A stretch of DNA of 64,000 bases from Fuerstiella sp. (GTDB lineage Bacteria > Planctomycetota > Planctomycetia > Planctomycetales > Planctomycetaceae), in the NCBI GenBank assembly GCA_022447225.1, contig JAKVAZ010000001.1, positions 186,001-250,000 on the forward strand. The letters are read 5' to 3'. The translations under genes were made by a program, and so were the position numbers. Below are positions 48,768 to 64,000 of the stretch, piece after piece. A model generated the notes under the pieces. That model was given only the letters and a program-made list of their open reading frames with translations. It made no database searches and had not been told where the DNA came from. Numbering within the stretch: the stretch's first letter is position 1; every line of letters starts with the position of its first letter.

Positions 48768-49412
48768 TCATGACGATTGATTCCCGGATGCTGCCAACAG
48801 CTCATCACCAGCGTACATTGCTGGTGAACAGCAGGAGCAGCATGTGTAACGTCGATTGAGGAGATGTGCTGAAACCAGCAGCAGACCGCCCAAAGGTGTC
48901 CACCAGGTTGCCATGGCACTCAGGTTCCGGAAAGAACCATCGGTATTTGTCTCGAACGCTGCCGGAGTCGCTACGCCGGTCTCTGCCGGGGATTGACAGC
49001 AATCAAACGGACAGGCTTCGTCCTGCGGCGCACCTTGTGTAACCGATGATTCGTTCGCTTCCGTTTCCGCCGCTGCGGTGGCTGCAGCACAGCATTCGTC
49101 TGTGTGACCATATGCGGCCGAGGCAATGATTATCAGGCCGACTCCCGCTGTCATTCCTGGAAGCCATCGCCGGTGTGTCCGCCATCCGGGAACGAAAGCG
49201 ATCAGAGCCAACAGCAGACAGGTGACGGTCATCCATTGATGAAACGATTCGTCAGCGAGGAAACTCAAGCCCAACGCTGGCAGATAGGCAATCAGAAACG
49301 GCATTGCCGCACAATGGACAGCGCATACTAAAGAGGCAGCGATTCCCAGAAAATCCCGCCAGGCAGAAGTGGGCTGTTCAGGCAATATTTCGGCGGAAGC
49401 AGCCTGCGACAT
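48768..49412 (-). CDS. MerC-like membrane protein with Cys-rich loop and tail
   Basis: A 214-residue membrane protein starting at the ATG at 49412 (AAGGAAA ribosome binding site). Residues 20-50 contain the MerC-type helix pair with LVCAVHCAAMPFL, in which two Cys and a His face the pore; MerC proteins import Hg2+ but in planctomycete loci relatives more often accompany zinc genes. Two further spans follow at about 62-78 and 88-103. A cytoplasmic or periplasmic loop has two Cys clusters (DECCAA, CPFDCC). A last span near 180 is followed by CCSCC. This Cys content suggests metal binding. Confidence 0.75.
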   Translation of the reverse strand: MSQAASAEILPEQPTSAWRDFLGIAASLVCAVHCAAMPFLIAYLPALGLSFLADESFHQWMTVTCLLLALIAFVPGWRTHRRWLPGMTAGVGLIIIASAAYGHTDECCAAATAAAETEANESSVTQGAPQDEACPFDCCQSPAETGVATPAAFETNTDGSFRNLSAMATWWTPLGGLLLVSAHLLNRRYTCCSCCSPAMYAGDELLAASGNQSS

Positions 49413-49554
49413 TTCAGATTTCCTTTTTGCGCTCTCGTTGTTTCTCAGGGAAAATGCAGAGAACGTTCGTCCGTTTTCGAACGCCGTCAACACATTAATG
49501 CTCATGGCTCTGAGCTGGTACTTTCCACCGAGGGACTGGATCCTCGAATATCTT

Positions 49555-49872
49555 TCACTTGTTCCGATCGACTTTGAATTTTCCATCCGTCAGCAGGCGC
49601 TGATCGAACCTGTCCCGAAAAATGGCTTGGTTCAGGTCATTGACAATCAGAGTCACACGCAGTCCCTGGCGGTTGTTCAGGACATGATTCCGAAGAGTTG
49701 TTGTACCGGCCCCCGGAAACTCAGACAGCACAGCCACCGGGACCGGTTCAGAAATTTCCTCCCGGACCGGCAGCGACATCAGCACCGGTGAGACATCATA
49801 GTTCGATGCTGCCTGTTCCGAGGAACCCCGGTCAGGTAATTCGGCATGGCTGCTGTTCTTTGAATCAGTCAT
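49555..49872 (-). pseudogene. CobW-family GTPase fragment, decayed
   Basis: The 105-codon frame contains the beginning of a CobW/ZNG-type G3E GTPase: VPVAVLSEFPGAGTTTLRNH followed by VLNNRQGLRVTLIVND. In functional members the P-loop reads GFLGAGKTT; here the lysine is replaced by Thr and the preceding Gly-Phe-Leu by Glu-Phe-Pro. After IVND the similarity stops, so the switch regions, the CxCC metal site and the C-terminal domain are missing (about 300 residues). The fragment is preceded by 40 residues without similarity. It should not bind GTP normally. It points to an earlier zinc-metallochaperone gene at this site. Confidence 0.72.
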
Positions 49873-50051: not shown

Positions 50052-52238
50052 TTATTTTCCGGTCGGCGATGAGCCGAATGATGCACCAGAGGTTACACGT
50101 CGGCTTGGGAACCAGGCCAGTGCTGTGCCCAGCGTCAGCACGACAGCCGAGACTGCCAGCCAGCACCACGGGAGGTGCTCTGCTTCAACCTGTCCGATAT
50201 TCCACTTCGCCAGCAGTTCACGCGACTGGACAACGATCAGTAGTGTACTGTTGTGAATCACGTGAACAATGATTGACGGAATGGTGCTTCCGCTCTGCCA
50301 GGTAACCCAACCGAGCAATATTCCCATAAGCGTACTTGGAAGAACTCGCTCCGGGGCAGCCCCTCCCGCCAGAATGACATGGAACATGCCGAATGCAAAG
50401 GCAGAGCAAAAAATTGTCCCTACGCCACGGAGATGTTGTTTCAGCCCATTGAATAGAAAACCGCGAAAAAAACACTCTTCACAGATGCCCGGTACGACAC
50501 CAAGACACACAACCACCACCCACAACGGGACGTTCTTCCAGCCTGCCAGCAGGCTGTCAATGTTCTCAATCTGTTCCGGATCGAATCCTCGAATTCCAAT
50601 GCTTTGAGCAAAGACAACCAATTCAAAGATCCAGGGCCACACCGCCACTCCAAGAATCGGTGCTGCCAGCCACCAGGACCATGCCGGTTTCGTCAGACCG
50701 AGCCCATGTGAGCGCGAGACGCGTTGCCAGCCCAGCAGCAGACAGGGGACCACAACGAACAGTACGGTCGTGGTTATTGCAGACCATGTCAGACGAACCG
50801 TCGGTTGTGCTTCACCGCGGCCCAGAATACCGGAGACGATGAAGTGTCCGGGGAACAGCAAAGCCAGGGTCAACAGGGTCGAAGTCAGTGAAGGTAGCAG
50901 TGTTCGAAGTTTCGGTCGCCGCAGGAAGTCTCCCCAGCGACCTTGGCTTCCAACTGCGACCGCATCATTGCCAAACACCTGTGATGCCAGTGCCAGAGCT
51001 GATACTCCGTACAGAAGCGTTGAGATGACTGCGACGATGGCAGGAAGTCGCTGTGCTGTTCCTTCTAAAAAATCCCGGGACAGGAGCAGAATGTTTACCA
51101 GCGGTAAAGCAGCCGTTCCGCCGGCTAACTTCCAGCCAGGTATCAGGATGACCAGTCCCGGTGCAATTGACAGCAGCAGCAGGGGAATCAGGTAGGCCTG
51201 TGCTTCCTTAAAACTTCGGGCTGAACTGGTGAGCAACAGCAGTACTGCCGCATAAAACACAGCAAAAGCACCCAGTCCAAGAAACAGCTTTGCTGCCAGC
51301 GCAGCCGTGAAGCCACTTTCCCCCAACAAGGTTTTATCTAACTGCAGTGCGTAAAGCGTGACGCTCATGGCCACCAGATTTATGATCCCTGTTAGCAACG
51401 TCACGGTCACTACCGCAACATACTTCGCCGCCAGCAGGCGAAATCGCAGGACCGGCAACGCCATCAGTGTTTCCATCGTGTTTCGTTCACGCTCGCCGGC
51501 GGTCAGGTCGATTGCAGGATAGACACCTCCGGTCACAGTCATCAGCAGCAGGATCAGGGGCAGTAAACCCAAAACTGTCGAGGGTTCCTGTGCGGGCTCG
51601 AGCAATACACGGGATTGTTCGATCGGCACCGGCAATTTTTGGCCTTTCTCCTGGGCCCAGCCTTCGATCAACTCGATATTTGCTGCTGTCAGTCTTCTTG
51701 CGATATAGTCATACAGATCACGACTTCGTGAAGAGGATTTGTTTTGGAGTAGTTGTACCCGAGCCTGTTGTCTGCCGTTCGTGAAAGACTCTCCGAACTC
51801 AATGCGGACACCAAGATCGGCTGCAGAATCCGTGACGATGGAACCCAGATCAAAACCAGCAGGGTCTTCAGGTACCAACAACTGAACCTCGGGCCTCGGT
51901 TCGGAAGTCACTGAGGCCGCCGTCAGTACTCGATCTCCGGTGCTCAGCGTCTCCCGCAGCCACTGAGCCTCCGTCCTGGTGTTGACTGCCAGGTGGTACT
52001 CCAGTCGGGAATCAGTCGACTGCTGAAATGCGAGGAATCGCAGGCCCAAACCGAGCAGAGGATAAAGCAGCAGCGGCATCACCAGCAGCGTGACGATCGT
52101 GCGACGGTCGCGAAGCGTCTCCCGCAGTTCTTTTCGAGTGAACTCGATCTGTTGAACAACTGAGAAGAGAAATCGGTTTTCGGAATCCGAGTGAGGCATG
52201 CCGAGTTGTTCAGAGAGATTGTTTGTGCGATCACTCAT
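50052..52238 (-). CDS. ABC-2 type permease fused to CPBP intramembrane protease domain
   Basis: A 728-residue membrane protein. Residues 30-420 form an ABC-2 export permease of the NatB type: a span near 50, a large external domain (70-210), then spans beginning with [34 protein letters not shown]. The C-terminal 230 residues are a CPBP (CAAX protease/bacteriocin-processing) domain with the catalytic EExxxR motif in [14 protein letters not shown] and the downstream His motifs FGMFHVIL and HVIHNS. Such fusions occur in several Planctomycetes. It overlaps the ATPase gene by 8 bases, so the two are translationally coupled. Substrate unknown. Confidence 0.9.
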
Positions 52239-52995
52239 GGCCTGCGCGCTTCCCTAAAGTTTTGGTTTTCGGAGGGGCTTCACGCATCAGGCGCAGAAAT
52301 ATCTCCACCAGAGATGGTTGTCCGGTTTTTGTTTTCAATTCATCGAGTGTTCCCTGGTACTTAAGTTTTGCTCGATACAGAAGGCCAAATCGATCGCAAA
52401 ATCGTTCCGCTTCCTCGAGTTGATGAGTGCAGACAATAATTGCTTTGCCGGCTTCTCGAAGGACCTGAACAAAGTCGATAACCACCTTGGCACCAACAAC
52501 ATCCAGTCCGCGAGTGGGCTCGTCCAGCAGAACAACGGGCGGATCATGAACCAGGGCTCGGGCCAGATTGACCCGCTGTGCCTGCCCGGTACTCAAAGTT
52601 GCGCAGCGACGATCCAGGAAGTGACTGAGTTCCATGCGGTGCGACAGTTCATCGATACGCTGATGCGCCTTTTCTCTGTTCAAGCCGAAACCAAATGCGA
52701 AATACTGAAGCAATTCACGAGGCGTCAGCCACTGATACAGGCCGGCACTGGCTGATACGAGCCCGATCAGACGCTTCATCCTGAGCGGACCGGCAGAGAC
52801 TTCGCAGTCTAGAATGGAAGCGTTTCCGCTGGTGGGTTCCAGCAGGCCGAGAATCATTCGCAGCGTGGTTGTCTTGCCCGCGCCGTTTGGACCCAGCAGT
52901 CCGTAAACTTCCCCCGGACCGACGGTGAGAGACAACCGATCGACTGCGACGACATCGTCACCAAAGACCTTTGTGAGTTGATTCAGTTCAATCAT
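52231..52995 (-). CDS. ABC transporter ATP-binding protein (NatA-like)
   Basis: A 254-residue ATPase. It has Walker [12 protein letters not shown], a Q-loop region, signature [15 protein letters not shown] (the usual LSGGQ is LSTGQ), Walker [13 protein letters not shown] and an H-switch CTHQLEEAE. The short N-terminal domain and the C-terminal extension resemble drug or sodium exporter ATPases of the NatA type. Paired with the overlapping permease-CPBP gene, it makes an ABC exporter half. Neighbouring genes hint that the export relates to metal stress or surface proteins, but this is not shown. Confidence 0.92.
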
Positions 52996-53029: not shown

Positions 53030-53566
53030 TCAGATTTCTATGCGAGCACATATGTCCTTTACGATCTGAAGATTGTCCTCAATTTGCAGGGATGCCTCAC
53101 CGTATGAGATACCTTCCTTTCCGTGCATCGTCGCATCAACCGCCGCGAAGGCTTCAAACAGCTTGGCCACTGCCATCTGCACGGCATTTCGCTGCTCTTG
53201 TGTCGTCTTCGCATTTTTGATGAGTTCATGCATGTTCTTAAGAATGTGACCCATTTCGTGCAGAAGACCGTCAGCTGAAGTGGCATTGTTCGTGTGAAAT
53301 GCCCGGCTGATCGCCTCATTCAACCCCACAATCACCTCGACGGCTTCCTGGAGTGTGTCCGGAGGCGATTCATCCGGAGCGTCGGGTTCAGATTCTTCGT
53401 GTCCGCGGTGTCCATGCCGGTGGTGATCACCGTCATCGGAGGGCGACTGAGCCAGTGAGACGGTGGTTGCAGAAGAGCAGCCATTCATGGTTGTCACAGC
53501 GACGGTGAGGCACAAAAGGATCAGGAAATGAGTTTCGGAGATTCCGTGCCTTTGTTTGATCAACAT
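53030..53566 (-). CDS. His-rich lipoprotein, putative periplasmic metal-binding protein
   Basis: A 178-residue lipoprotein starting at the ATG at 53566. The signal sequence ends at a lipobox with Cys30 (TTMNGC). Soon after comes a metal-binding-like segment, [15 protein letters not shown] (His 48, 49, 51, 53 and 56), followed by an acidic stretch. The remaining 110 residues form a helical domain ([39 protein letters not shown]) that I do not recognise. Histidine-rich lipoproteins of this type commonly bind zinc or nickel outside the inner membrane. It is divergent from the Cys-rich gene and the site at 53667 is about 100 bases upstream. Confidence 0.75.
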
Positions 53567-53666
53567 GATTCCGTTCCAGCAGGCGAAAGCGGGTATTTCG
53601 GGGTGTTTCCGGCGAGTCAACGGACAGGTGTTCTACGAACCTCGCTGTTAATGCGTTTGAAATGCA

Positions 53667-53685
53667 TTTGCAAATAAGTTGCATA
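53667..53685. promoter_or_regulatory. Candidate Zur operator, site 2
   Basis: TTTGCAA-ATAAG-TTGCATA: half-sites TGCAA and TTGCA in inverted orientation with a 5-base spacer, the same layout as the palindrome at 54024. It lies about 100 bases upstream of the His-rich lipoprotein start. Assignment to Zur is an inference from position near a Fur/Zur gene. Confidence 0.45.
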
Positions 53686-53689
53686 TAAG

Positions 53690-54023
53690 GAATCTGGCGA
53701 GGTTTGGCAACACGCCACATGAGGCCTCCGTTTCCGCAGACCTTCCCGGGGGGTCGAACATTCGTTCCCCAACGACTGCGATATCGCCACTTTGGAGTTT
53801 TTTTTCCGAAACAGACAGTTCGGATCGACTTCACGACAGGCTGCTCCCGCAAACGGCTTCACTTTGATCAGAATGGTTTCGGCATCACTGTCCGGATAAA
53901 TGGAGTTCTTCTCCGAGTTCGATACCTGCCCTGCGCACTCCATAGAGAAGCTGCTGTCCCGGATACGGTGTGAAGCTCCGGCCTTTAATTGTTAAGAACA
54001 AAAGAAAAACAGCTCACGGCAGT
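53690..54023. other. Region between the two candidate operators
   Basis: About 330 bases between the two palindromes and upstream of both divergent genes. Frames on both strands are short and overlapping with no recognisable product. It probably contains back-to-back promoters, which I cannot place confidently. Confidence 0.4.
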
Positions 54024-54046
54024 TACATGCAATTCGATTGCATGTA
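54024..54046. promoter_or_regulatory. Candidate Zur operator, site 1 (perfect palindrome)
   Basis: TACATGCAAT and ATTGCATGTA form a perfect 10-base inverted repeat around TCG. The inner core is TGCAA-N5-TTGCA, shared with the site at 53667. It lies about 125 bases upstream of the Cys-rich gene. The arrangement is like a Fur-family operator, and a Fur/Zur gene lies 3 kb away. Confidence 0.55.
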
Positions 54047-54171: not shown

Positions 54172-54561
54172 GTGTCCATATCATCCACAAAAATACGGGT
54201 TCCCGTAGCCACGTGCGTTGCACTGCTGCAGCTTGTTCTGCTGCCTGCGACGTCCGTCCTTCACAGGTGCGAGGTTCCATCCGGTTTTCACGCTGGGGCT
54301 TCCGGCGGATGTGGCGACGCATGCTGCTATCGAGGTCTTCGTAAAGACCGCCGGAATAGTGAGCAGCGGGAACGTCCCGGATGGCCTGATTCAGGGCAGT
54401 GCCAAATCTGCCATACACTTTTCGCTCCTGTTACTCCTCCTCCGGATGCTGACGAACTGAATTGTTCCGGAACGGTCACGGTTCTGCGCCAACGGCGCGT
54501 GATTTTACCCTGTGTGGCAGTGTCATACCGCTTTCCGAGTCGCGGACCGCCCCTTGGCTGA
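54172..54561 (+). CDS. Cys-rich secreted protein of unknown function
   Basis: A 129-residue protein starting at a GTG, with an N-terminal hydrophobic signal segment (VPVATCVALLQLVLLPATS). Cysteines follow at positions 33, 47, 51, 52, 77 and 80; the last pair with H81 forms C-x2-C-H (CQICHTLF), the arrangement of a c-type haem site, although metal binding is also possible. It resembles short exported proteins of the DUF2946 kind that accompany metal genes, but this is a weak match. It lies downstream of the palindrome at 54024 and may be metal-regulated. Confidence 0.5.
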   Translation: MSISSTKIRVPVATCVALLQLVLLPATSVLHRCEVPSGFHAGASGGCGDACCYRGLRKDRRNSEQRERPGWPDSGQCQICHTLFAPVTPPPDADELNCSGTVTVLRQRRVILPCVAVSYRFPSRGPPLG

Positions 54562-54889: not shown

Positions 54890-55834
54890 ATGAAAGTTTC
54901 ACCACAGAAACAAAGTGGGTTTACTCTGATTGAGCTTCTCGTCGTCATCGCTATCATCGCCGTCCTGATTTCGCTGTTATTGCCTGCAGTGCAGCAGGCC
55001 CGAGAAGCGGCACGCAGGGCCCGGTGTCGCAGCAATCTGAAGCAAATCGGGCTGGCTCTGCACAATTATCACGACGTTCACATGATGTTTCCCCCCGGTT
55101 GGGTGGGGGCCACTTTGTCTCCTTATCAGCAACACACGGGAATGGAAGATCCGGCGGTACCAACCAGCTTTCGCAATGGTTTCAGCTGGGCCACATTTAT
55201 TCTTCCTATGCTGGATCAGGACACTCTCTATGCCTCACTGGATTTTTCCCGTCAGGTCAACGGCGGTTCGGGAAATCAGGCAGTAATCAAAACGTTTTTG
55301 GATGTTTACACGTGTCCTTCTGATTCCATACCCAATACTTTTCTGTTGAACGATGGAGTCAGCGACGTTGAGTTGGCGACCACAAATTACGCAGCTGTCT
55401 TTGGGACACGCGAACTGGAAGAGTGTGAAATCAACGGCGCCCCCGGTCACGTGACTGCGGGTCAGCAATGTACATCAGACGGCATGTTCTTTCACAATAG
55501 TGCAATCAAAATTGGTGGTGTCACCGATGGCACAAGCAACACGATCATGGTGGGAGAGCGCACAACATTCGTGGAACCGGGTGAGGACGATTTTTACGGT
55601 GCCTGGGCAGGGATTATTACCGGCACCGAAGAGGCGGCGGCCCGATTTATGGGAATTGCTGATCACGTGCCCAACGAGCTGGTACATCCGGAAGACTTTG
55701 CAAGTAACCACCCTGGCGGTGCACACTTTGTTCTCGGCGACGGTTCGGTTCACTTCATGAGCGAAAACATGGATGAAGGTGTGTTTCAATCGCTGGCGAC
55801 TCGGACAGGTGGTGAAATCGTTGGTGAATTCTGA
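54890..55834 (+). CDS. DUF1559 protein with type IV pilin-like N-terminus
   Basis: A 314-residue protein of the DUF1559 family, which is amplified in Planctomycetes. The N-terminus is a prepilin signal: QSGFTLIELLVVIAIIAVL, with cleavage expected after Gly10 and Glu at +5 of the mature protein, followed by the typical LPAVQQAREAARRARC and NLKQIGLALHNYHD. The C-terminal region has the GGAHFVLGDGSVHF motif common to the family. It probably assembles into pseudopili or a surface layer associated with type II secretion. Here it stands between metal genes rather than with secretion genes. Confidence 0.95.
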   Translation: MKVSPQKQSGFTLIELLVVIAIIAVLISLLLPAVQQAREAARRARCRSNLKQIGLALHNYHDVHMMFPPGWVGATLSPYQQHTGMEDPAVPTSFRNGFSWATFILPMLDQDTLYASLDFSRQVNGGSGNQAVIKTFLDVYTCPSDSIPNTFLLNDGVSDVELATTNYAAVFGTRELEECEINGAPGHVTAGQQCTSDGMFFHNSAIKIGGVTDGTSNTIMVGERTTFVEPGEDDFYGAWAGIITGTEEAAARFMGIADHVPNELVHPEDFASNHPGGAHFVLGDGSVHFMSENMDEGVFQSLATRTGGEIVGEF

Positions 55835-56179: not shown

Positions 56180-56878
56180 ATGCATGAGCATACTCATCAG
56201 CTGACTCTTGGCCTCGGCGCACTGCATGCACTTGAACCAGGACATGGCAAGACCGCGATGCTGGTCTATCTGTCTGGTGAAAGACGAAGTTTGCTGCATC
56301 CGCTGGTGATGGGATTATCCAGCGCAGTTGCTCACAGTGTTTCATTAATTGGAATCGCTGCTTCCGTTCATTTGACGCATCATCTCATCACCGGTGACCA
56401 TGGCCATCATGACCAGTTGGTGACTCGCAGCATGCAGTGGATCAGTGCCGCATTGGTCACGACTGTTGGTCTGTGGATGGCGGCGGCAGCATGGAGGACC
56501 CGGCCCGCTCGATGCGGGTGCAGATCCGCCCCACACGAATGTGGTGGCGATACTTTCGCCGTCAAAGCCACCGCGAAAACGAGTTATTCGATGAGTGCGC
56601 TACTGGGGGTTGCGTTTGGTCTTTTACCATGCCCCTCTGCCATGGCCGCTTACTTCACGAGCATTTCGTCCGGTTCTCCTGTTGCTGCGTACGGTGTGAT
56701 AGGTCTGTTTGCAGCTGGGATTGCTTCTTCTTTGACACTCGTCGGTATACTGATTCAGGTCTTTGGGGGTCGTCTGTTGGAATCGGAGTCTTGGCTCTCC
56801 CGATTACCATGGCAGCCGATTCGCGCCGGATTGATTCTCTCTGTCGGAATATTTTACACGTGGCAGCTGGTTAGCTAG
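56180..56878 (+). CDS. Nickel/cobalt-type (NicO/RcnA-like) transporter
   Basis: A 232-residue membrane protein starting at the ATG at 56180. The first span carries ALHALEPGHGKTAMLVYLSG, the HxxxPGHGK signature of NicO/RcnA metal permeases. A His-rich loop (HLTHHLITGDHGHH) lies between the next spans, typical of metal efflux proteins, and a CGC/HEC pair follows. Later spans include LLGVAFGLLPCPSAMAAY, another conserved motif. The frame is open upstream but without similarity. With Zur, the His-rich lipoprotein and the MerC-like protein it forms a metal-homeostasis neighbourhood; the cation could be Zn2+, Ni2+ or Co2+. Confidence 0.8.
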   Translation: MHEHTHQLTLGLGALHALEPGHGKTAMLVYLSGERRSLLHPLVMGLSSAVAHSVSLIGIAASVHLTHHLITGDHGHHDQLVTRSMQWISAALVTTVGLWMAAAAWRTRPARCGCRSAPHECGGDTFAVKATAKTSYSMSALLGVAFGLLPCPSAMAAYFTSISSGSPVAAYGVIGLFAAGIASSLTLVGILIQVFGGRLLESESWLSRLPWQPIRAGLILSVGIFYTWQLVS

Positions 56879-57177: not shown

Positions 57178-57651
57178 GTGTCCATCAATGTCTCAACTTT
57201 CACTCTGTCGGAGCTGATGAAGCCGAAATCTGATACAGCTGAAGTCAAAGAAACGATCCGGTCAGTCGGCCTTCGCGCCACACCGGCTCGAGTGGCAACG
57301 CTCATCCTGATTCGGGACATGAGTGCTCCCATGACACATGCGGAAGTTGCTTCTCGACTTAGTGAGAGCGGTGTTGACAAGGCCACTGCGTTTCGAAACC
57401 TCAACGACCTGGCGGATGCCGGTTTGCTGCGTCGTGCTGAATTAGGTGATCACGTTTATCGGTTCGAGGAAGTGAGAAGTGACGAGCACGGTCATGATCC
57501 TCATCCACATTTTTTGTGTGTGACATGTGGTGTGGTGACATGCCTCGACAGCGTGCGACTGACGGTGGGAAGTCAGCGAGCCAGCGAGGAAGTTGGTGAA
57601 GTCAACGAGATACTTCTTCGCGGTTGTTGTAACGACTGCAAACAGGACTGA
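57178..57651 (+). CDS. zur: Fur-family metalloregulator, Zur-like
   Basis: A 157-residue Fur-family repressor. The start is a GTG with GGAG eight bases upstream. The winged-helix part holds LRATPARVATLILI, MTHAEVASRLSESGVDKATAFRNLNDLADAGLLRRAE, with the recognition helix. The metal-binding half has HGHDPHPHFLCVTCGVVTC and a C-terminal CCNDC, supplying the structural zinc site and the regulatory His/Asp ligands. The His-rich loop favours Zur or Nur over iron-type Fur. It is close to the candidate operators at 53667 and 54024 and to metal genes. Confidence 0.8.
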   Translation: MSINVSTFTLSELMKPKSDTAEVKETIRSVGLRATPARVATLILIRDMSAPMTHAEVASRLSESGVDKATAFRNLNDLADAGLLRRAELGDHVYRFEEVRSDEHGHDPHPHFLCVTCGVVTCLDSVRLTVGSQRASEEVGEVNEILLRGCCNDCKQD

Positions 57652-62284: not shown

Positions 62285-63400
62285 TCAGGCACCTTCGGGG
62301 CGGGACCCCCATTCGACACAATTCCGAACAGAATTTTGTCCGTCCTGCAGGGAAACAGCCCTGATGATTGCAGTCAGATTCTGATTCATTCGCTGAATCA
62401 GTGTCTGCTGACCATCTGCATGTTCGCACAGATCGACAAGCACAACCGGCACCAGGCTTTGTCCGTTCAGGTCATCGCGCAGTGTCGCAAGTGTGGATCG
62501 CAAAAATACGACTGTTGGCTCGTACTCAGCAATCGCTGTTTGAATTGACGCATGATCTTCGTCTGACAAAAGCCCTGTCGACGGAAGATGAATGTATTTC
62601 AAATTCCAGCCCAGTCGTTTCGTCAAATACTGATAAACCGGCGCATCACCAACAACGGTGACAGCAGTATCCGAAGTCACAGTTGCCAATTCCTCCAGTC
62701 GATCATCCAGTCGTCGAAAATCTTCAGCGAGTCTGTCGGCGACCTTACGAATGTTTGCTTGGGAGTCCGGAAGGACGCTCAGCAGTACGTCGCTGGTCTG
62801 GTACAACTGTGATGTTGCCAGTTGTGGGTCGAGCCAGGTGGCCCACACCACACCCGGGTGAGAATGATCTCCGTCCGGACCGTGTTGATGAATCACGGCA
62901 TCGGGAATCCGCACAAATTGATCGTAAAAACCCTGAGATGTATCGATCAGCCGAGATCGAGGAACAGTCACTCGCTGCAGCCACGGTTCATAGTCGGCTC
63001 CGCTGATGAGAATTCTGGTTGCCTGCTGCATCCTGCGTACAGCATCGGAATCCGGTTTCCAGTCCGGTGACGTGGTGCTGCGACTGACCACAAGTTCAAC
63101 ATCCGCCGCGTCACCCGCCATTTCCTCTGCCATGGCCAGCAGAGGATAACTGGTCACGGCAATCTTAACCCTCCGGGAAACAGTGTCTTCCTGATGTTCG
63201 ACTGTCTGATCACATCCGAGAAACAACCAAGTTATGACGAACAGGAGGGTGACCGGATTCGCGAAAGGTTGCCAGCCGGAGAGTGTGGTCGCGATGGGGT
63301 TTCGAAAGTCTTTCCGTACGAAACCACAGGGATTCCGGGATAATCCGGATTCCTCCGCCCGCCGTACGGCCGATGTGGTGAAATCCGCGTACAGTTGCAC
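62285..63400 (-). CDS. ZnuA-like metal ABC transporter substrate-binding lipoprotein
   Basis: A protein of about 371 residues related to cluster A-I zinc/manganese binding proteins. A lipobox-like sequence with Cys63 (VITWLFLGC) follows a hydrophobic segment, giving a long n-region, so the true start may be internal; the GTG at 63400, four bases after the asd stop, was chosen because no ATG precedes the signal. Core segments: KIAVTSYPLLAMAEEM, the ISGADYEPWL turn, a His-rich loop (HQHGPDGDHSHPGVVW) and the DPQLA motif, and the second lobe YQYLTKRLGWN. ZnuB and ZnuC are not in the window. Probably in an operon with asd. Confidence 0.8.
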   Translation of the reverse strand: MQLYADFTTSAVRRAEESGLSRNPCGFVRKDFRNPIATTLSGWQPFANPVTLLFVITWLFLGCDQTVEHQEDTVSRRVKIAVTSYPLLAMAEEMAGDAADVELVVSRSTTSPDWKPDSDAVRRMQQATRILISGADYEPWLQRVTVPRSRLIDTSQGFYDQFVRIPDAVIHQHGPDGDHSHPGVVWATWLDPQLATSQLYQTSDVLLSVLPDSQANIRKVADRLAEDFRRLDDRLEELATVTSDTAVTVVGDAPVYQYLTKRLGWNLKYIHLPSTGLLSDEDHASIQTAIAEYEPTVVFLRSTLATLRDDLNGQSLVPVVLVDLCEHADGQQTLIQRMNQNLTAIIRAVSLQDGQNSVRNCVEWGSRPEGA

Positions 63401-63404
63401 CTGC

Positions 63405-64000
63405 CTACGCACGATGTTGCGCCAAAAGTTCTGCGATCTGTACGGCATTCGTTGCGGCTCCCTTTCTGAGATTGTCCGACACACACCAGAACGCCAAACC
63501 ATTTGGATGGGACAAGTCCCGCCGGATTCGACCTACAAACACATCGTCACTGCCGCTGCAGGCTGAAGGGAGAGGATACTGACCGCTGGAGACGTCATCG
63601 ATGACCGTCACTCCAGGAGTTGCGGCAAACAGTTTCCTTGCTTCATCAACACTCACCGGGCGTTTGGTTTCGACAAGGATGCTTTCACTGTGACAGTTCA
63701 TGACAGGAACCCGCACACAGGTGGGGCAGACCTGCAGTGACTCATCCCCAAAAATCTTACGGGTTTCATATACCATTTTTAGTTCTTCACTGGTGTAGCC
63801 TGCTTCCTTTTCGCTCCCAATCTGGGGAATCGCGTTGAAGGCAATCGGGTGTGAAAACACCTGGTACTCATAGTCTTTGCCGTCCAGTGCCGCCTGGGTT
63901 CCTTCGGTCAGATCTGTTGTTCCCTGGAGTCCTGCACCACTGGTGGCCTGGTAGGTACTGACGATTACCCGATCAATTCCGGTTGCGTCATACAGCGGTT
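63405..64000 (-). CDS. asd: Aspartate-semialdehyde dehydrogenase, C-terminal part
   Basis: Partial gene running off the window's right end; 198 C-terminal residues are visible. They match the catalytic and dimerisation domain of bacterial Asd: STYQATSGAG, FNAIPQIG, CVRVPVMNCHSESILVE, VFVGRIRRDLS and WCVSDNLRKGAATNAVQIAE. The enzyme reduces aspartyl phosphate to aspartate semialdehyde for lysine, threonine, methionine and diaminopimelate. The N-terminal NADP-binding part with the catalytic Cys is outside. It precedes the ZnuA-like gene with a four-base gap. Confidence 0.93.
   Translation of the reverse strand, partial: PLYDATGIDRVIVSTYQATSGAGLQGTTDLTEGTQAALDGKDYEYQVFSHPIAFNAIPQIGSEKEAGYTSEELKMVYETRKIFGDESLQVCPTCVRVPVMNCHSESILVETKRPVSVDEARKLFAATPGVTVIDDVSSGQYPLPSACSGSDDVFVGRIRRDLSHPNGLAFWCVSDNLRKGAATNAVQIAELLAQHRA

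Follow-up and report, generated by a model that had tools for sequence, protein, structure and literature searches.

Candidate Zur-type operators between divergent metal-related genes of a Fuerstiella genome and their recurrence at zinc-related genes of Planctomycetota

INTRODUCTION

In other bacteria, ZigA is a target of the zinc-responsive repressor Zur. Proteins of this kind are zinc chaperones of COG0523 (PMC2770081). The closest described counterparts of the sites analyzed here are the predicted Zur box of Desulfovibrio, ATGCAACNNNGTTGCAT, located at znuABC-zur of two species (Rodionov 2004, PMC545781), and the feoAB1 Fur operator of Magnetospirillum gryphiswaldense, a near-perfect version of which, TTGCAAATCATTTGCAA, was solved with a Fur-family protein (PMC4506495). 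According to the excerpted text of these reports, the Desulfovibrio box shares with the planctomycete sites the core TGCAA-N5-TTGCA and the linkage to a zur-like Fur-family gene and zinc genes, and the feoAB1 operator has identical half-sites and spacing. The differences lie in the full consensus and in the genes and metals concerned. The planctomycete consensus is TTGCAATYSRATTGCAA and is found at zur, ZIP, ZigA, MerC-like, and DUF1559 genes. Its linkage is to zinc genes, whereas Fur carried manganese in the Magnetospirillum crystal (PMC4506495). In contrast to the classical AT-rich Zur boxes, e.g., the Escherichia coli motif TRWNAYRWTATAWYRTNWCA (PMC6103462), the planctomycete box represents a different sequence class, and its TTGCAA half-site matches the Desulfovibrio type.

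Zur-type operators are also present at zepA, the gene of a secreted zinc protein with relatives in Planctomycetota (PMC10957091). In the excerpts of that study, the described motifs apply to Cyanobacteria and Proteobacteria, supplemented by a Clostridia-like site in one Verrucomicrobium, Luteolibacter, and cover no Planctomycetota. A study of ribosomal protein S4, as excerpted, scanned for Zur sites with profiles of other phyla (PMC3087516), and Zur and zinc are absent from PMC6461901. Among the matches listed in our limited literature searches, no report of a TGCAA-N5-TTGCA box from Planctomycetota was found, which is a weak indication of its absence from print. DUF1559 proteins will be considered below as possible members of a zinc regulon. 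Planctopirus limnophila has 68 such paralogues without known function (PMC10632474), and Rhodopirellula baltica has 74, nine of which rose in high salinity (PMC2754498). A term search in the available text of these two papers retrieved neither zinc nor Zur, and no literature linking DUF1559 with zinc was found.

RESULTS

The window, i.e., the complete 64,000-nucleotide stretch of Fuerstiella sp. contig JAKVAZ010000001.1 that was analyzed, harbors two palindromes in front of two divergent genes (Table 1). A preliminary description of this DNA had noted a perfect 10-3-10 palindrome, a second site with the same core, TGCAA-N5-TTGCA, their location upstream of divergent genes, and a Fur/Zur gene about 3 kb away, and all of these points held upon remeasurement. 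The core of operator 1 starts 103 bp before the ATG (position 53566) of the lipoprotein gene, or about 49 bp before an alternative TTG start at 53620. Between the end of the operator 2 core (54042) and the GTG (54172) of the gene for the Cys-rich protein lie 129 bases, and the distance from the sites to the Fur-family gene is 3.1 kb. A sigma-70-like promoter was not found between 53400 and 54300.

TABLE 1 Candidate operators and genes in the analyzed part of the Fuerstiella sp. contig
Feature	Position	Strand	Remarks
ABC permease fused to CPBP intramembrane protease	50052-52238	-	NF041647, 438.1 bits (cut-off 435)
ABC transporter ATPase	52231-52995	-	PF00005; directly after lipoprotein gene
MerC-like membrane protein	48768-49586	-	PF03203, 9.1e-25; not preceded by a box in the window
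His-rich putative lipoprotein	53030-53566	-	First gene downstream of operator 1
Overlapping, weaker motif copies next to operator 1	53652-53666 and 53658-53672		May be auxiliary sites
Operator 1, Zur-type (candidate)	53667-53685		Core at 53669-53683
Operator 2, Zur-type (candidate)	54024-54046		Perfect 10-3-10 palindrome; core TGCAA-N5-TTGCA at 54028-54042
Small secreted Cys-rich protein	54172-54561	+	CxxC, SRGPP at the C terminus; first gene behind operator 2; putative start codon
DUF1559 pseudopilin	54890-55834	+	PF07596, 8.3e-55; N-methyl motif
NicO/RcnA-like membrane transporter	56180-56878	+	NicO below cut-off, DsbD_2 over cut-off
Fur-family regulator, proposed Zur binding the operators	57178-57651	+	PF01475, 2.1e-10; AlphaFold model; tree

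Apart from operator 2, the window contains no perfect 10-3-10 palindrome. In 30 simulated windows (first-order Markov), such a palindrome was absent from 27 and present once in 3. The core without mismatch occurs exactly twice in the window. With one mismatch allowed, 4 matches stand against 3.1 expected, and the relaxed core was therefore uninformative and dropped as evidence. The core is not enriched genome-wide either, because 6 matches in the whole 5.43-Mb genome compare with 7 of a reversed control pattern. The probability that two of six random genome positions fall within 360 bp is 0.002, and the core flanked by A or T on both sides (W-flanked) is represented in this genome by exactly the two sites of the window, compared with one control match. 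Taken by itself, this sequence evidence makes the pair of sites suspicious, no more.

In a first set of 28 orthologues of the Fur-family gene from relatives, a perfect core was present in three loci (L040, L041, and L067), 80 to 108 bp upstream of the matched part of the orthologue, and two cores were located upstream of nicO in L045. In the best 80 of 274 orthologous loci from a scan of named genomes, 46 cores were counted in 1.23 Mb, compared with 0 to 2 for each of four control palindromes of the same form. For 24 of 79 of these orthologues, the 300 bp upstream contained a perfect core (0 for each control), and with up to one mismatch the number increased to 31 of 79 versus 0, 1, 2, and 2 for the controls. 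The remaining 49 of these best 80 orthologues had no site in the 300 bp upstream, one mismatch included.

A matrix was built from 23 distinct sites upstream of orthologues in other genomes, without use of the window. The half-site in its counts is TTGCAA, the consensus is the one given above, and additional preferences exist outside. The training sites score 23.9 to 34.1 bits. The two top-ranked matches of the window are operator 2 with 27.1 bits, inside the training range, and operator 1 with 20.6 bits, below it, and the best score in 20 simulated windows was 16.4 bits. Ranks 3 and 4 are the two weaker copies beside operator 1 (9.2 and 6.1 bits), both within reach of simulated windows. The matrix scan detected no box at the window's own zur or at its znuA-like gene (62285-63502). 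A third credible site of this genome (21.0 bits) is located directly upstream of a ZigA gene (NF038288, 600.8 bits; cut-off 600). The expectation of the preliminary description that such a motif would turn up at zinc genes was thus confirmed for zur orthologues, ZIP, and COG0523/ZigA genes in relatives and for zigA in the own genome, i.e., the box is an inverted repeat at zinc-gene promoters that recurs among relatives. Among the targets recognised beside the inspected sites, a zinc-free ribosomal protein paralogue was not encountered. The other three core matches of the genome were judged to be fortuitous. Two of them are intragenic, with 4.3 bits in a troA-like coding sequence (C1:396851) and -3.2 bits in a TPR gene (C11:121025), and the third, C11:214016, scores 4.0 bits.

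The product of 57178-57651 is one of two Fur-family proteins of this genome (the second is encoded at C11:36569), and its PF01475 domain scores 41.2 bits (cut-off 23.1). Its AlphaFold model (pLDDT 81) has a Fur fold and structurally matches Fur (1mzb, Z 14.2, 128 residues, rmsd 5.1), PerR, and Zur (4mtd, Z 11.1; 3mwm, Z 10.8), a model comparison that does not separate the three types. No NCBIfam model exceeded its cut-off, with those for Fur, PerR, and Irr far below, and a PDB profile search returned Fur, PerR, and Zur chains with Fur in first place. The structural zinc site of Zur consists of two CxxC pairs. In the regulator, the corresponding residues C114, C117, C151, and C154 are invariant in 24 of 24 rows, so that FUR-family domain, fold, and structural zinc site of a Zur protein are all present. 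The sensory zinc site of Zur has two nitrogen, one oxygen, and one sulfur ligand, according to the excerpt of PMC6103462; the candidate ligands H109, H111, and E97 are kept in 24 of 24 rows, and a cysteine replaces the glutamate of Fur (CGxVTC) in 79 of 80 orthologues, a substitution that would fit the sulfur ligand. Judged by the motif in front of ZIP, ZigA, and zur itself, this protein family would control zinc uptake and handling genes.

In a tree of 82 proteins, which is based on few columns and leaves many forks unresolved, the window's protein belongs to a mainly Pirellulaceae clade of 42 rows (support 90/93). Perfect upstream sites are found in 24 of 41 other members of this clade (one of which, L100, has no upstream sequence) and in 0 of 39 proteins outside of it (Fisher p 9e-10, not corrected for kinship). 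Outside the clade, two orthologues have a site with one mismatch within 300 bp upstream, one of them (L137) together with a perfect site at -327, and boxes near zur precede ZigA in L110 (25.6 bits), ZIP in L145 (26.5 bits), a small Cys/His gene in L140 (22.2 bits), and DUF1559/ArsR genes in L132 (29.8 bits; the same site as in L205). At the level of genomes, 9 of the 23 relatives that possess a zur orthologue have sites at recognised gene classes, compared with 1 of the 35 that lack it (p 6e-4), as counted in hand-made presence tables of 58 relatives with an orthologue defined by an E value below 1e-15. Inclusion of the own genome changes the numbers to 10/24 versus 1/35, and restriction to zur, ZigA, ZIP, and MerC leaves 5/23 versus 1/35 (p 0.03). 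Both genomes of the same genus lack this zur as well as any W-flanked site. A 32.1-bit box at ZigA in G036 (99% complete) is not accompanied by a zur-type gene; this genome has one Fur-like match, and another protein may therefore read the box there. All of the six zur-less genomes checked by profile encode a Fur-like protein.

Orthologues from the window's own family that are represented in the tree fall outside the clade of Pirellulaceae-type proteins to which its zur belongs. Together with this grouping and the lack of zur in the same-genus genomes, a horizontal acquisition of the gene is likely. Zur proteins on contigs labelled Nitrospinaceae (L096) and Verrucomicrobia (L108 and L136) are nested in the Pirellulaceae-type clade too, which reflects transfer or wrong binning.

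With respect to the leftward genes of the window, the His-rich lipoprotein matched no curated family over cut-off, and a similar sequence was found in 2 of 113 loci searched (L058 and L086). The ABC genes have homologues in L111 (ATPase 79%, permease 67% identical), where the ATPase gene is located about 0.4 kb behind two boxes of 30.0 and 20.2 bits. Among 29 loci of permease relatives, a box within 1.5 kb upstream was present in one, the more distant operon L305, and absent from the nearest relatives G073 (62%) and G171 (53%). The comparison thus supports the leftward ABC genes as a possible box target of this locus, not as a general one. Homologues of the NicO-like transporter with 66 to 71% identity occur in L072, L111, and L122, with a box upstream in L072 and L122. 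In the examined set of 10 NicO relatives, a box at a distance of up to about 310 bp upstream was present in 1. ABC and NicO genes as general targets of the box are weakly supported by these counts (1/29 and 1/10). Relatives of the MerC-like gene are preceded by a box in L079, L085, L124, L183, and L225. A truncated CobW/COG0523 N-terminus, whose P-loop reads GAGTTTL, overlaps the MerC-like gene of the window at 49555-49872 and is perhaps the remnant of a second ZigA-type gene.

The Cys-rich protein of the rightward side has no Pfam or NCBIfam match and could be aligned with six proteins that are encoded next to zur or linked to a box at other loci. Residues M1, D73, C77, C80, R124, P126, and P127 are invariant in this alignment, and the six relatives have in common the CxxC motif and a C-terminal RGPP (RAPP in one of them). 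Two of the six show a weak DUF2946 match below cut-off.

In other planctomycetes, boxes separate zur from a divergently oriented gene for ZIP, COG0523/ZigA, or a MerC-like protein, and further sites were found at NicO, ArsR, HisI, and PEP-CTERM choice-of-anchor M genes. The 97 distinct sites of at least 17 bits in the fetched loci, a collection that includes the training sites and many loci chosen around zur, are associated with zur (22), ZIP (17), ZigA (16), DUF1559 (10), and MerC (5), with double assignment possible; 23 are intergenic without recognised neighbour and 7 are inside coding sequence. In 11 genomes that were reached through zur loci, 51 W-flanked sites were counted versus 10 control matches. 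New stretches of these zur-bearing genomes contributed 34 further sites. Called ORFs of at least 150 amino acids contain 21 of them, one in a DUF1559 ORF that was called too long, and 7 have a recognised class as neighbor.

A less biased sample is provided by the own genome and 58 relatives, with 75 W-flanked sites versus 40 of the control. Inspection covered 63 of the 75 (first 20 regions picked by eye by sequence, the rest fetched after), the 12 others being the two sites of the window, G049:C35 and G057:C6 upstream of zur, and eight of the nine copies of a repeat in G035. Twenty-five of the 63 sites are inside ORFs of at least 150 amino acids and 38 are intergenic. The first gene behind the latter encodes DUF1559 (7 sites), ZigA (2), ZIP (2), MerC (1), a small Cys/His protein (1), an ABC ATPase (1), or a 175-amino-acid protein followed by ZigA (2 sites of one locus), and 22 of the 38 have no recognised neighbour. 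DUF1559 is undercounted by one in this list, because the L264 site, assigned to a 383-amino-acid ORF, is the L379 site of G003, about 138 bp before a DUF1559 gene. The G035 repeat, found mostly at contig ends (C25, C79, C84, C86, C88, C116, C125, C162, and C177), carries ATGCAAACAGTTTGCAT or its complement and is perhaps a mobile element unrelated to zinc. In L072, L076, and L132, an ArsR-family regulator gene is located behind or beside a box near zur, together with a His-rich protein in L072 and L076, and two metal sensors may therefore be wired together.

The share of DUF1559 among the intergenic sites (7/38) is above expectation (binomial p about 1e-5 at 2%), in a family with at least 21 to 124 copies per genome in the 7 genomes counted. 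In a motif-independent test, 148 genomes were searched by protein similarity with the DUF1559 proteins of the window and of L219 as queries, and for the 30 best loci per query, 420 bp of upstream sequence were scored at a threshold of at least 14 bits. A site was present at 25 of 60 loci (14 + 11). Elsewhere in these loci, 5 of 418 windows had a site, and so did 114 of 2,000 random windows that were able to overlap the sites. The reversed matrix had no match at any of the 60 loci, and none of 100 symmetric permuted matrices matched more than 1 of them. Six of the 25 were known beforehand (L322, which is the query's own gene, L323, L345, L353, L366, and L379), and 15 of the 25 genes belong to genus g54; counted by genus, the matches amount to 4/14 and 4/17. 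Alignments of the upstream regions show boxes conserved between diverged flanks, with two boxes about 30 bp apart in one subfamily. For the relatives of the window's DUF1559 protein in L132 and L353 (74 to 75% identical; L353, with 75%, is the closest), the gene is preceded at a distance of about 275 bp by a box of 29.8 bits, and zur is in the vicinity. In the window itself, 862 bp and the small Cys-rich gene lie between operator and DUF1559 gene, so that control of the latter by the operator is inferred. The idea that box-bearing DUF1559 proteins are metal-rich was not supported by a comparison of 26 box-bearing (window's included) with 34 other proteins (His, p 0.66; Cys, p 0.10). The two DUF1559 proteins near zur in L106 and L107 have a His/Asp-rich stretch.

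DISCUSSION

Since the two sites of the window are top-ranked by a matrix derived from elsewhere, linked to one zur clade, and neighbored by zinc genes, a Zur-type operator system is the most likely explanation, and the palindromes are very probably operators of a zinc-responsive repressor encoded at 57178-57651. A zinc-bound Zur dimer, or perhaps several at operator 1, would sit on TTGCAA-N5-TTGCAA-type DNA and block two divergent promoters. When zinc runs short, Zur would leave the DNA and both gene sets would be expressed. The leftward set would start with the His-rich lipoprotein gene and probably extend into the ABC ATPase and permease/CPBP genes. The rightward set would consist of the gene for the small Cys-rich secreted protein, perhaps joined by that of the DUF1559 pseudopilin behind it. 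In other planctomycetes, the same kind of site would serve ZIP, ZigA, MerC-like, regulator, and DUF1559 genes. The preliminary description had suggested that this may be an undescribed Zur box of Planctomycetes. The Zur-type reading is supported, and our limited searches revealed no description from Planctomycetota, but the core itself is not new; it was predicted for Desulfovibrio as early as 2004 and is close to the Magnetospirillum Fur operator.

The latter operator, with its identical half-sites and spacing, is also an argument for another member of the Fur family with iron, manganese, or nickel as the sensed metal (Fur, Mur, or Nur), e.g., the protein encoded at C11:36569. A NicO-type gene (nickel/cobalt family) in the window's cluster and the G036 box in a genome without zur-type gene point in the same direction. 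We nevertheless regard this as unlikely, since ZIP, ZigA/COG0523, and the zur orthologue make up the recognised targets, in scans that did not cover iron and nickel genes as a class, and since the recognised sites track zur and not the Fur-like genes that all six checked zur-less genomes possess. A further alternative is that one palindrome is a real site and the other, most likely operator 1, a chance occurrence. Its score below the training range and the three low-scoring, probably fortuitous core matches elsewhere in the genome speak for this view. Operator 1 nevertheless exceeds the best simulated window by several bits, the homologous ABC genes of L111 are preceded by a pair of boxes, and the close spacing of two of the six genomic sites is improbable, so that we give a single genuine site little credence.

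The palindromes might also be RNA hairpins, which a perfect inverted repeat could in principle form, or terminators or repeats, with no part in the binding of a regulator. This is very improbable: the terminator scan returned nothing at operator 1 or operator 2, the six core matches of the genome have six different spacers and are therefore not copies of one repeat, and other genomes have the half-sites, with identical spacing, in front of unrelated genes. With Zur-type operators as the preferred reading, Planctomycetota would gain a candidate zinc operator, and their regulons would become readable from sequence.

The frequent occurrence of the box at DUF1559 genes was unexpected and leads to a more tentative proposal. 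On balance, and with some reservation, we consider it probable that dedicated DUF1559 pseudopilins are direct targets of Zur in planctomycetes, in part jointly with a small, secreted, Cys/His-rich protein that has RGPP at its C terminus. If so, these members of the family would be made only in zinc starvation, which offers a testable condition for part of the DUF1559 family, and they may build a zinc-capturing surface structure or replace a zinc-needing one. In L224, L326, and L329, the box-linked DUF1559 gene is followed by a short lipoprotein-like gene and by the gene of a longer secreted protein, which comprises 461 amino acids without Pfam match in L224 and is present in L322 too.
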